From Candidatus Muproteobacteria bacterium RBG_16_65_34 (GTDB lineage Bacteria; Pseudomonadota; Gammaproteobacteria; Acidiferrobacterales; Sulfurifustaceae): DNA of 32,282 nt. Below the pieces are notes generated by a model. The model was not told the DNA's origin. It saw nothing but the letters and a program-made list of their open reading frames with translations, and made no database searches. This document shows positions 7,958 through 32,282 of the stretch, in pieces. The stretch is taken from NCBI GenBank assembly GCA_001785115.1, contig MFSU01000028.1:1-32282 (forward strand), in the 5' to 3' direction. A program made the translations under genes and the position numbers. Position 1 is the stretch's first letter, and every line of letters starts with the position of its first letter.

Positions 7958-8485
7958 ATGGCCATTCGATCTTACAAAGACATACTGCCGAAGATCGCCG
8001 CGAGCGCCTACGTCGACGTGCAGGCCGCCGTGATCGGCGATGTCGAGATCGGCGCGGACTCCTCGGTCTGGCCCATGTGCTCGGTGCGCGGGGACGTGAA
8101 CATCGTCCGCATCGGCAGCCGCACCAACGTCCAGGACGGCACCGTGATCCACGTCACCCACCCGCACGAAAGCACCACCGGCGGCCATCCGGTCCTCATC
8201 GGCGACGACGTCACCATCGGCCATCAATGCATCATCCACGGCTGCACCATCAAGTCGCGCTGCCTGATCGGCATGGGCTCGGCTCTTTTGGACGGCGCGG
8301 TTTTGCGTGAAGGTGTTTTCCTCGGCGCCGGCAGCCTCGTCACCGAGGGCAAGGATCTCGAAGGCGGCTACCTCTGGCTCGGCCGCCCGGCGAAAAAGGT
8401 GCGCCCGCTCACCGAACAGGAAAAGGCCTGGTTCGAATACTCGGCCCGGCATTACGTAAAGTTGAAGGACGATTACCTGAAATAG
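7958..8485 (+). CDS. Gamma-class carbonic anhydrase-like hexapeptide-repeat protein (YrdA-like)
   Basis: Left-handed beta-helix repeats: VIGDVEIGADSSVWPMCSVRGDVNIVRIGSRTNVQDGTVIHVTHPHE...IGDDVTIGHQCIIHGCTI. Confidence 0.93.
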   Translation: MAIRSYKDILPKIAASAYVDVQAAVIGDVEIGADSSVWPMCSVRGDVNIVRIGSRTNVQDGTVIHVTHPHESTTGGHPVLIGDDVTIGHQCIIHGCTIKSRCLIGMGSALLDGAVLREGVFLGAGSLVTEGKDLEGGYLWLGRPAKKVRPLTEQEKAWFEYSARHYVKLKDDYLK

Positions 8486-8665
8486 CCCGAAATCGCGGAA
8501 CTCAAAAGAGAGTCGGCTTGACCCGGGGACCCAGGTGACCCAGCGCGTCATTTGCGCGTTCGGCTTGATGTCGAAATCGGCTTAACTTGTAGATTTTTCC
8601 GTTTGCAGGAGTAAACTTGAAATATTCGGGGATGTCCCCGTGTCACCGCAGCGAGTTTGTCGGCC

Positions 8666-8857
8666 ATGGATAAAAAACTCCTTATCAACGAAATCGAAAA
8701 GATTCCGGAACCGTTCATTGAGGAAATTTACGATTTTGTAAGTTACCTGAAGGCCCGGATCATCAGGGAAAAGTCGGAAACGGCGATCGCCAGCGAGTCG
8801 TCCCTGGGGAAGGATTGGCTCGATGCCAGGGAAGACAGTGCATGGCAAAATTTGTAA
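8666..8857 (+). CDS. DUF2281-like antitoxin
   Basis: MDKKLLINEIEKIPEPFIEEIYDFVSYLKARIIREKSE...; overlaps the downstream toxin by 16 nt. Confidence 0.7.
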   Translation: MDKKLLINEIEKIPEPFIEEIYDFVSYLKARIIREKSETAIASESSLGKDWLDAREDSAWQNL

Positions 8858-9177
8858 GGGGCGATGTTGTCGTTGTTCCTTTTCCGTTTTCCGACCTGAG
8901 TCAGTCCAAGCGACGCCCGGCGCTGGTGGTGGTCGAGTTGGCCGGCGATGACCTTATCCTGTGCCAGATCACCAGCCAACCCATCAAGGATTCCTACGCC
9001 CTCGCCCTCGACGACGCCGACTTTTCCGAGGGCGGCCTCAAGCAACCGAGCAACATTCGCCCCAACCGCCTGTTCACCGCTGACAGCCATATCGTTCTGT
9101 ACCGTACCGGGAAGCTCGGGGCGGATAAGTTCAATCAGGTGGTCGAAAAAATCATCGGGATTGTCCGCGGGAAATAG
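8842..9177 (+). CDS. PemK/MazF-family toxin
   Basis: MAKFVRGDVVVVPFPFSDLSQSKRRPALVV...DLILCQITSQ...PSNIRPNRLFTADSHIVLYRTGKL. Confidence 0.9.
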   Translation: MAKFVRGDVVVVPFPFSDLSQSKRRPALVVVELAGDDLILCQITSQPIKDSYALALDDADFSEGGLKQPSNIRPNRLFTADSHIVLYRTGKLGADKFNQVVEKIIGIVRGK

Positions 9178-9500
9178 CGTCTATCGGGCGCTGCAAGACC
9201 CTCGCCGAAGCCCGGGCGCAAGGCCGAGGCCATCTGGGCATCGAGGTCTGACTCGCAAGCCTGACCCTCGTTTTCAGCGATGAGTTTCTAGGTCGCTGCG
9301 GCAACCGCCACGGCAGCACCACGCTCATCGCGGCGTGTGAACCTCGATAAGTGTTTGGTGCAGACACGTTGGTCTGACACCCCAAGATGAGAAACGAAGT
9401 CAGGTCACGAACCGCTTCGGCTGGCGCGCGTGCGACGCGGATGACGGAGTGCCTTCGTCAGGGGTTTTTGTTGCCCTTGACGAGCGGGGGCCTCATAAGT

Positions 9501-9507
9501 GTTATGC
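9501..9507. other. Integron-type core site (GCATAAC on minus strand) adjoining a stop codon
   Basis: Minus-strand ...GGACTAG GCATAAC...; same word as one end of the attC-like site at 10165-10231. Confidence 0.45.
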
Positions 9508-10152
9508 CTAGTCCACCCCAATTGGTAGTTTGTAGTTTGCGTTAATTCCAGCAATTCGACGCTTCATCTCTTTAATGCTAAGTGTAGCTGATTCATATTC
9601 CAGTCGATCCGCCCACATTTTCCACAGTCTGAGTAGATTGCTGTGATTAATAGTTGTTGATGACTGCATTTCGATATGCCATGGCAAAATCAATTCTGCG
9701 CATTGGCAATAAGCGCTTCCGGAACCGGAATAACCTACGGATTCGTCCGCGACTCCAGAAACAAAATATAAAGAATACTTTTCAAGCGCATTGATAAATG
9801 GAATTAGTACATCGTAGTGTTCCGCGAGTCGCTCACATTCATTTACACGTTGCTCTTCAGGTAAGTTGACGTGAATTTTGATTGAGTCGTGGGACCTCTC
9901 GTATTCAATAGAATCGAATATGGCCAACCCCTCATCTTCAGCAATCTTCAGCAGTTGGCTGTGTAACGGTATAATTTCCTGAGCAAAGAATTCACTCTGT
10001 TCGACCGCAAGTCGCAATGCATCTCGCTGGGAAGTTATTTTGATATTCTTTTTGGCAACACGGATTTGGATAAGAACAAACATCCCTACTAAGACAAGCA
10101 AAGGTCCTGAAGCAAAATATATAAGCTCAAGAATTTGGCGTATATCATTCAT
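9508..10152 (-). CDS. Hypothetical protein with one N-terminal TM helix, cassette-borne
   Basis: 214 aa; IYFASGPLLVLVGMFVLIQI near N-terminus, then a cytoplasmic helical region. AT-rich relative to flanks. Start codon about 13 nt from the attC-like site. Confidence 0.75.
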   Translation of the reverse strand: MNDIRQILELIYFASGPLLVLVGMFVLIQIRVAKKNIKITSQRDALRLAVEQSEFFAQEIIPLHSQLLKIAEDEGLAIFDSIEYERSHDSIKIHVNLPEEQRVNECERLAEHYDVLIPFINALEKYSLYFVSGVADESVGYSGSGSAYCQCAELILPWHIEMQSSTTINHSNLLRLWKMWADRLEYESATLSIKEMKRRIAGINANYKLPIGVD

Positions 10153-10164
10153 TATTTACTCCGG

Positions 10165-10231
10165 GCATAACGTTCCGGTTCAGGCGCGGCGGCGCGTCAG
10201 CGACGACGTCGCCTGGAACCGGGGGTTAGGC
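10165..10231 (-). other. attC-like integron recombination site
   Basis: Minus strand: GCCTAAC CCCCGGTTCCAGGCG...GCGCCTGAACCGGAAC GTTATGC. Terminal R boxes and inner arms CCGGTTCCAGGC / GCCT-GAACCGG pair with one extrahelical base. Confidence 0.78.
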
Positions 10232-10726
10232 ATCTTCTGTACCGGGGTATGGGATGCCAAGATCGTTAGCAATGATTTCAAACCCACGCTCATTCTTGTA
10301 TTTCTCCATATCTTTCCCTTTCGTCAAAACCCTCTCCCAGCCCGACACAGCCTTCTGATGGTTTTCTTGGATGAATTTGACGGGAAGCGTGTAGAACTCC
10401 GGTTCAGCAAAACCTTCACGAATTGGTTTTTTCTTGTAGTAATAACCGTTATTCAAGAAAACAACAATGACGTAATCGAAAGCCGAGAACGATTTTTCTT
10501 TAACGGGAAAAGCACGGTCACTATCAGTTTGGTACCGGCTTTTAACTTGCACTCGAATTTGCTCTGCACTCTTTCTGGGGTCTGGATGTATACAGATAAG
10601 ATCATAGCCTTCATTGTTCGGTGGAGCCTTGTACGCAAGGATATTGCGACGCATAAGATGACCAATGACAAGGTGCTCGGCACCAAGCGAGACAACAGGG
10701 TATCGGCGTGCGTCTTTGTTTCCCAT
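10226..10726 (-). CDS. Putative PD-(D/E)XK-type nuclease-fold protein, cassette-borne
   Basis: SLGAEHLVIGHLMRRNILAYKAPPNNEGYDLICIHPDPRKSAEQIRVQVKSRYQT resembles E...YDL...QVKS motifs of Hjc/DUF4365-like folds; stop codon lies inside the attC R box. Confidence 0.65.
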   Translation of the reverse strand: MGNKDARRYPVVSLGAEHLVIGHLMRRNILAYKAPPNNEGYDLICIHPDPRKSAEQIRVQVKSRYQTDSDRAFPVKEKSFSAFDYVIVVFLNNGYYYKKKPIREGFAEPEFYTLPVKFIQENHQKAVSGWERVLTKGKDMEKYKNERGFEIIANDLGIPYPGTEDA

Positions 10727-10742
10727 GCGATATCTTTAAGAT

Positions 10743-10749
10743 GCCTAAC
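10743..10749. other. Integron-type core site (GTTAGGC on minus strand) upstream of the cassette gene
   Basis: Minus strand TAATAAGTTAGGCATC, 17 nt before the ATG of the 10226-10726 gene; matches GTTRRRY. Confidence 0.5.
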
Positions 10750-10844
10750 TTATTAGACCGCGTAGAAACTCATGGAAACCGTTGCCAGATATAGCACCAG
10801 GTTTCTATATCTGGAAACCAGATTCCACATATGTAACCCTCGTC

Positions 10845-11204
10845 GCTTCACGATGCGGTAGCCAAGCCCGAGGGCGCGCACCCTTTCGTGAGGCAGCCGC
10901 CAGAGCTTTTCCGCGGGCGACCACTGCCCGCCGCAGCCGTGCGAACTTTCTCGCGCAGCTCGCGCTCGCGATAGAAGACGCGGACGCCGACCGTGCGCGG
11001 AGTTTTTTGGCGCCGGTACTTCCTCGACGGCGGGCTCGGGCGGCGGACTTGAGCTCGTTTCCTCGACGATCAGCTCGACGGTCTTGTAGCGCTTCTTCGC
11101 CTCGGTATCGCAGCGGTAACGGACGCACCGAGTCGCGAGCCGTAGGGTTGCAGCAGTCGCTGCGTGCCCTTCTGACCCGGACGGCGGACGGCCAAGTCGT
11201 GCAT
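10845..11204 (-). pseudogene. Frameshifted conserved hypothetical protein
   Basis: Three frames give MHDLAVRRPGQKGTQRLLQPYGSRL / CVRYRCDTEAKKRYKTVELIVEET / VGVRVFYRERELREKVRTAA and GQWSPAEKLWRLPHERVRALGLGYRIVKRRG, which together resemble one small conserved proteobacterial protein. Confidence 0.7.
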
Positions 11205-11529
11205 GACGCTCCCTCGCTTGTTGTTGTTCGCTCGGCGCGTGTCAGCTTACGCCTGGGGGCCGGATTTCGGCAAGCTTGAGGGTCGTGCCGCCGGCGCCTC
11301 GTAGGCGAGCAGGACACCGAGGGCGGCCGAAGCGGGAGTGAGGTTTTGTTTTTCCGGTCCCCGTAGCGCACGCCGAGTATCGCAGCCCCACCGGGAGCAT
11401 TTAAGCGAGTATTGATCGAGCCCGAGGCGCGTTGTTGAGCGCCCGGCGAGTTACGCAGCGCCCGATGGGGCGAGAAACGCAGGACACCGCGCTGAAAGCG
11501 CGGCGCGCGCTCCGGGGCGGATTTCTTTT

Positions 11530-11566
11530 GGTGACTTTTCTTTCGGCCGAACAAAGAAAAGTCGCC
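11530..11566. repeat. Long-stem hairpin repeat, copy 1
   Basis: ggtgacttttcttt cggccgaac aaagaaaagtcgcc, followed by tgccgcgggtcagccacccgcaa; matches 32240-32275 in opposite orientation. Confidence 0.88.
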
Positions 11567-11622
11567 TGCCGCGGGTCAGCCACCCGCAATTACAAAGCGC
11601 GGCCGCGGGCCGCCCGAAAAAC

Positions 11623-12462
11623 TTATCCTCCTTTCCGCAACGCCGCGATCACCGACTTCGTCTCCGGCCGCACGCCGTGCCAGACGAGATACGACTCGGC
11701 GGCCTGCTCGACGAGCATCCCGAGGCCGTCGGCGATGCGCTCCGCGCCGTGGAGCGCGGCCCAGTCCATGAACGGCGTGGCCTTGTCGCCGTACATCATG
11801 TCATAGGCGAGCGCGTGGTTGGCGAAGAGGTTTTCGGGCAGCGGCGGGACCTCGCCCTTCAGGCTCGCCGCGGTGCCGTTGATGACGATATCGAAGCGCT
11901 TGCCTTTGAGCTCGTTGAAGCCGCAGGCCTCGATCCTGCCGAAGTGCGCGAACTCCTCGGCCAGTTCCTTGCCCTTAGACACCGTGCGGTTGGCGATTAC
12001 GAGCAGCGCCGGGTGGTGTTTGAGAAGCGGCGCGAGCACGCCGCGCACCGCCCCGCCGGCGCCGAGCACGAGCACCTTCTTGTCCTTGATCGCGACTTCC
12101 AGATTCTTGGTGAGGTCGTGCACCAGCCCGGCGCCGTCGGTGTTGTCGCCGAAGACCGTGCCGTCGGGCTCGAAGCGGATGGTGTTGACTGCGCCGGCGA
12201 GCTTGGCGCGGTCGCTCAGGTGATCGGCGAGCCGGAAAGCGTCGAGCTTGAACGGCACGGTGACGTTCAAACCGCGCCCGCCCGCGGCGCGGAACTGCGC
12301 GAGGGCCTGGGCAAATCCGCCCGGATCGACCTCGATCGCGGTGTATTCGATGCGGTGCTTGAACTGATGGGCGAAGAGCGTGTGGATGCGCGGCGACTTG
12401 CTGTGGGCCACCGGGCTGCCCATCACGGCGAACTGAAGCGACGCAGATTCGATATCGGCCAT
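11623..12462 (-). CDS. aroE: Shikimate dehydrogenase
   Basis: FAVMGSPVAHSKSPRIHTLFAHQF...GLNVTVPFKLDAF...VLVLGAGGAVRGVLAPLL...NGTAASL. Confidence 0.96.
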   Translation of the reverse strand: MADIESASLQFAVMGSPVAHSKSPRIHTLFAHQFKHRIEYTAIEVDPGGFAQALAQFRAAGGRGLNVTVPFKLDAFRLADHLSDRAKLAGAVNTIRFEPDGTVFGDNTDGAGLVHDLTKNLEVAIKDKKVLVLGAGGAVRGVLAPLLKHHPALLVIANRTVSKGKELAEEFAHFGRIEACGFNELKGKRFDIVINGTAASLKGEVPPLPENLFANHALAYDMMYGDKATPFMDWAALHGAERIADGLGMLVEQAAESYLVWHGVRPETKSVIAALRKGG

Positions 12463-32096: not shown

Positions 32097-32239
32097 AACG
32101 GGCTCTTTGCGCCAGCGCATGAGTGATTTGATGTGGCCCGGCTGCGTTTCACCGGTTGCGCTTTGTCGGGTTTATGTCGATGTTGAATCGCCTTCGGCGA
32201 TGATCTGAAAAGCTACTTGTGGGTGGCTGACCCACGGCA

Positions 32240-32275
32240 GGTAGCTTTTCTTTGCTCGTGCAAAGAAAAGCTACC
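32240..32275. repeat. Long-stem hairpin repeat, copy 2 (element runs to window edge)
   Basis: ggtagcttttctttgc tcgt gcaaagaaaagctacc, perfect 16-bp stem; flank gggtggctgacccacggca is the reverse complement of the copy-1 flank. Confidence 0.92.
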
Positions 32276-32282
32276 AAAAGAA

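Follow-up and report, generated by a model that had tools for sequence, protein, structure and literature searches.

Two small foreign genes in a bacterial chromosome are true integron cassettes that lack a neighbouring integrase gene

Gene cassettes without an integrase have been described in several settings. Under the default of IntegronFinder 2 a CALIN needs at least two attC sites (PMC9024848), and a SALIN is a single attC lacking an integron-integrase (PMC12690207). In E. coli, chromosomal attG sites are recognised by IntI (Loot et al. 2024, Nat Microbiol, as cited in PMC12444791), and Xanthomonas carries CALINs at seven chromosomal loci (PMC12444791). The locus studied here resembles each of these in part. 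With CALINs it shares attC-bearing chromosomal cassettes without a nearby intI, but it has only one complete attC, and a recurrent attI-like leader in front; with SALINs (PMC12690207) it shares one detectable attC and no intI, but two cassettes are present here and the attC of the second is truncated. As in attG dispersal, so far as the citing paper presents it, cassettes lie outside an integron at scattered chromosomal loci; the left border here is, however, a conserved leader common to four loci and not a one-off genomic sequence. The Xanthomonas CALINs likewise comprise several intI-less cassette loci per genus, but their positions are relatively conserved across species (PMC12444791), whereas here the same leader stands at different loci in each genome.

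The window, i.e. the whole stretch of DNA analysed (32,282 nt), is an entire contig (C28) of the draft genome of Candidatus Muproteobacteria bacterium RBG_16_65_34 (2.03 Mb in 109 contigs, 75% complete). The initial annotation described two minus-strand ORFs, more AT-rich than their flanks and bounded by integron-type core words, in housekeeping surroundings with no integrase nearby. The named core words are all present at the coordinates given; GC content is 0.41-0.50 in the insert vs 0.60-0.69 in the flanks, and both the housekeeping setting and the missing integrase are borne out. The features of the locus are as follows.

7958 to 8485, plus strand: gamma-carbonic anhydrase gene, left flank
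9501 to 10170, minus strand: gene cassette 2, right end truncated, with start GTTATGCC at 10171 and end GGCATAAC
9501 to 9507, minus strand: R'' box GCATAAC, sole remnant of the second attC
9508 to 10152, minus strand: ORF2, a 214-aa orphan with a hydrophobic N-terminal stretch, starting 12 nt after R'
10165 to 10231, minus strand: complete attC, from two covariance models and its fold; the recombinogenic (bottom) strand is the plus strand
10171 to 10748, minus strand: gene cassette 1 (TTAGGC ... attC G), with matched ends
10226 to 10726, minus strand: ORF1, 166 aa, predicted PD-(D/E)XK-fold nuclease
10743 to 10758, minus strand: simple site, with left core GTCTAA (10753-10758), a 3-nt spacer (TAA) and right core GTTAGGC (10743-10749)
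10749 to 10825, minus strand: attI-like leader of class E; a stem-loop holds its half-sites GTTTC/GGAAAC, and its end, GTCTAATAAG, immediately precedes the crossover G|TT
11623 to 12462, minus strand: aroE, right flank

The complete attC is 67 nt long, with paired R''/R' cores (RYYYAAC...GTTRRRY) and inner L''/L' arms. We built a covariance model (R1) from 10 attC sites of intI-bearing loci in other genomes of the same order, and used it to gather 44 attC sites for a second model (R2); the window was left out of the training of both. The attC model comparison proposed with the initial annotation picks out exactly this site: R1 matches 10165-10231 on the minus strand with 29.4 bits (E 4.2e-5), the next match in the window being 18 bits lower at 11.2 bits, and R2 does so with 44.5 bits (E 1.4e-8). 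R2 finds attC in 19 of the 20 host-family genomes vs 2 of the 18 sister-family genomes. Folding scans for attC proved either too strict or too loose and were replaced by these models, and an Rfam scan of the window gave no family above its threshold. The imperfect palindrome with paired inner arms noted earlier folds far better than shuffled sequences (z -5.9 on the plus strand, -3.3 on the minus strand), best on the plus, or bottom, strand. The initial annotation reported an extrahelical base; the plus-strand fold leaves two bases, T and G, extrahelical on one arm, which are the canonical two. On the minus (coding, top) strand the 5' arm GGTTC(C)AGGCG(A)CG pairs with CG-CGCCT-GAACC, and the two unpaired bases of this arm correspond to the usual extrahelical G and T of the bottom strand. 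The site is a real attC, and a candidate substrate for recombination by an integron integrase.

The cassette ends point the same way. A circular cassette joins the R' box of its start to the R'' box of its end; these should match each other, and not the boxes of neighbouring cassettes. The ends of cassette 1 form a perfect 12-nt inverted repeat (10225-10236/10738-10749), its start GTTAGGCATCTT and end AAGATGCCTAAC matching at 12/12 positions, which none of 5000 random pairs equalled; the start and end of cassette 2 match at 8/8 positions, with a chance of about 1 in 1000. A mismatch such as the A-G within the middle attC is then to be expected where two different cassettes are joined. Cassette 1 has everything that defines a gene cassette (an ORF with an attC, a G|TT start and complementary ends), and cassette 2 is without most of its own attC. 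The word GCATAAC at 9501-9507, taken earlier as a bounding site, is there, but it is only the R'' box of cassette 2's attC: the sequence after it has no attC arm and no attC-like folding, and is unique in the genome. Because no attC arm follows, the second attC is lost beyond its R'' box.

This loss decides the formal class. With one complete attC (found by R1 and R2) and no intI, the locus agrees with the definition of a SALIN and falls short of the two attC of a default CALIN; a complete integron, in which intI adjoins attI and the array, is likewise not what we find, since IntI is absent both from the window and from the genome as recovered (75% complete). By anatomy the array is a decayed two-cassette CALIN, and formally a SALIN because nothing of the second attC remains past its R'' box, which leaves one complete site. 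The earlier label of CALIN-like thus holds for attC-bearing cassettes without intI but not for the formal class, and that of an orphan cassette array holds for real cassettes with no nearby integrase, but the array is not bare: an attI-like leader precedes it.

An ORF stop within an R box, with the next ORF just beyond, had also been noted, and indeed the ORF1 stop TAA lies in the R'' box GCCTAAC, ORF2 following R' as listed above. ORF1 is predicted to be a PD-(D/E)XK-fold nuclease: its AlphaFold structure has a pLDDT of 83.5, Foldseek matches it to I-Ssp6803I, archaeal Hjc, NhoI/Eco15I and SPARDA, and there is a weak profile match to PDDEXK_5. Alignment suggests that GYD and QVKSR are likely its active-site motifs. 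Its 26 relatives (55-87% identity over the matching stretches) are sporadic over many phyla, including Nitrospira, Planctomycetota, Chloroflexi, Deltaproteobacteria and Verrucomicrobiales. An attC is present within about 3 kb at only 4 of these 26 loci; the family is therefore not cassette-specific, and its relatives were rejected as proof of cassette origin, the gene being mobile in general and captured here as a cassette. Nucleotide homology to the Nitrospira copy, a non-cassette gene, runs from the ORF1 ATG (10726) to 10235, ending at the attC. For ORF2, the families of Pfam, NCBIfam and PADLOC gave nothing above cut-off, no plasmid or viral sequence matched, and relatives were absent from every search made; its fold prediction (pLDDT 49) was too poor for use.

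In 16 relatives the carbonic anhydrase gene and aroE lie next to each other on a single contig, in convergent orientation; the gap is 12-28 bp in three of them, and in others various genes fill as much as 6.6 kb. None of the 16 has an attC in this interval, and ORF1 was not found in other host-family genomes; the insert is therefore specific to the host lineage among the genomes compared, which include no second genome of the genus. In the comparison of relatives proposed with the initial annotation it is thus the insert that is missing, rather than the ORFs being present without core sites. The interval differs in almost every relative (L086-L101), so that the comparison yielded no exact empty site; it contains helix-turn-helix genes, a gene resembling a DNA methyltransferase, one resembling a transporter, or no gene at all, and may be an insertion hotspot. 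In the window the same interval also holds, at 8666-9177 on the plus strand, an antitoxin-like ORF of 63 aa that overlaps a toxin of the PemK/MazF type; the corresponding interval of G044 (L090) likewise has a relative of PemK, at 35% identity. A dispersed repeat of ~250 bp lies at 11342-11592 and 32214-32282, with about 60 matches in the draft genome (72-89% identical), often in inverted pairs about 70-150 bp apart, often contig-terminal, and without an Rfam match in the window. With regard to an intI remnant in the flanks, tblastn with 14 IntIs gave matches of 25-92 aa (E 0.002-0.02) that we judged to be chance, and a profile search of 8500-9510 and 10700-11650 returned nothing.

The leader lies outside the interval of the initial annotation, upstream of the first crossover. 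It is 76-81% identical over 65-71 nt (E 1e-8 to 6e-12) to leaders in three relatives, G040 (at 1.336 Mb), G045 (C164) and G046 (C61), all of which head intI-less arrays. The leader abuts the cassette start G|TT in the window, G040 and G045, and in G046 it ends at G|TT with attC sites after it; an attC lies downstream in all three relatives, with no IntI within about 3 kb. The surrounding genes differ from locus to locus. The simple site of the relatives reads GTCTAN, 5 nt, GTT, compared to GTCTAA, 3 nt, GTTAGGC in the window. Scored against intI-linked attI, the window leader reaches 9.5 vs 6.0 for the next GTTRRRY site, a modest match, and one mainly to a single attI. Since no intI was found beside any of the four class-E leaders, as an attI in the strict sense would have, their function as attI is inferred by analogy. 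The leader was not found in plasmids; its core had 66 matches in viral contigs, about the estimated chance number for a 30-bit pattern, and none shared the rest of the leader. The class-E leaders of G040 and G045 (L112, L132) are preceded by GCG|TTAAA, itself core-like, and the leader may have entered in one piece with G|TT at its borders.

Similar attC elsewhere in the genome, a search for which had also been suggested, do exist: about nine more lie on six contigs (C59, C76 with two, C22 with two, C90 with two, C3 and C49), several of them near contig ends. On C3 and C90, as in the window, they occur singly or in pairs within the contig, with housekeeping genes on either side. No IntI above XerC/D level was detected in the 75% of the genome recovered. 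The pattern extends to the family, with attC dispersed over G040 and G049, each a single-contig genome, and 24 attC on many contigs of G044 (99% complete) with no IntI detected. The left borders of single-attC loci recur among these genomes. Leaders L113, L123 and L124 match the attI beside the G040 intI (L026) over 53-147 nt; a separate class comprises L111, L114 and L117, with 91% identity along 148 nt between two loci that belong to the same genome, and the L117 core motif GTCTAMTNNTMGTTRGR is also found beside the intI of L032. The border of the host-genome C49 array matches L119 of G044 (76% over 80 nt). Judged by these matches, the cassettes of the host family are headed by recurrent attI-like leaders at many loci, in most cases with no intI, and captured genes seem to have been deposited at numerous scattered positions. 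The cassette loci on C3 (L053) and C90 (L054), the other two inside contigs of this genome, also adjoin, from the look of the sequence, toxin-antitoxin-like pairs (MqsRA-like and PIN-type, respectively). The C76 cassette genes (L050; 534-1925 and 2026-2868, minus strand) encode a Shedu-type SduA/DUF4263 protein and a membrane protein weakly like Csx27 (PADLOC), which suggests defence cargo.

On balance we consider it probable that the locus is a two-cassette integron array without integrase, between the carbonic anhydrase gene and aroE and behind an attI-type leader, an estimate that covers the identity of the array, its leader and the proposed insertion and decay history jointly. Counted in favour are the attC model matches, the matched cassette ends, the Nitrospira homology ending at the attC boundary, the other attC in a genome without IntI (75% complete, so that an intI could be missed), the spread of attC over the family but hardly over its sister family, the class-E homologues, the other leaders that match intI-adjacent attI, and the lack of attC between the flanking genes of the 16 relatives. 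Counted against are the lack of intI beside class-E leaders and the modest match to intI-linked attI. An integron integrase encoded elsewhere in the host or ancestral genome would have acted in trans, inserting circular cassette 2 first and cassette 1 next at the leader crossover G|TT, each attC recombining as its folded bottom strand. Decay would have followed, with most of the second attC lost and the spacer between the leader cores 2 nt short of its length in the three relatives. Both the short spacer and the truncation of the second attC suggest that the array is no longer mobile. A chance palindrome flanked by ordinary genes has a negligible probability: hairpins form easily in GC-rich DNA, but this reading is already contradicted by an E value of 1e-8 from an independent model (R2), by the matched ends, and by a sister family almost without matches. 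It is also very improbable that a cassette contig was joined to a housekeeping contig during assembly; several other attC of this genome do lie near contig ends, but this array is inside its contig, with both flanks in the gene order of the family (16 relatives), and the contig is not chimeric at the array.

There are further readings of how the cassettes reached this place. Integration by IntI at a chance chromosomal target of the attG type, a genomic sequence with no kinship to attI or attC, would fit the scattered single-attC loci of the family and a crossover at plain G|TT; it accounts for the scatter but not for the conserved leaders, and a leader shared over 65-71 nt with three other array heads is unlike a chance target, which makes this origin improbable. 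A complete local integron that lost its intI, leaving the array as a remnant with its own attI, is somewhat less far-fetched though still unlikely. Host-family genomes do carry intI, counterparts next to intI exist for the leaders of classes A and C, and CALINs have been proposed as degraded integrons (PMC9024848); against this, 8500-9510 and 10700-11650 hold no trace of intI, and the four class-E leaders lie beside different genes, none with intI. More tentatively, and as a possibility that we hold short of probable, the family may possess a distributed integron, in which stand-alone recurrent attI-like leaders without intI are loaded at many loci in trans by an integrase elsewhere. For class E, the lack of any intI-linked copy leads us to favour a spread of leaders served in trans over local loss of intI, both being possible.

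We found no description of recurrent intI-less attI leaders in the literature searched, of which our coverage was incomplete (including PMC12444791, PMC12901181, PMC11023631 and PMC12690207), and their novelty is thus provisional. The cassettes themselves are ordinary; we suggest that the point of interest lies in the scattered, recurrent attI-like leaders without intI. Integrase-less cassettes are usually taken as broken integrons or random integrations. If recurrent attI-like leaders do head unlinked arrays as proposed, the landing site itself would spread through the chromosome, and this would change the way in which integron capacity and cassette expression are counted.
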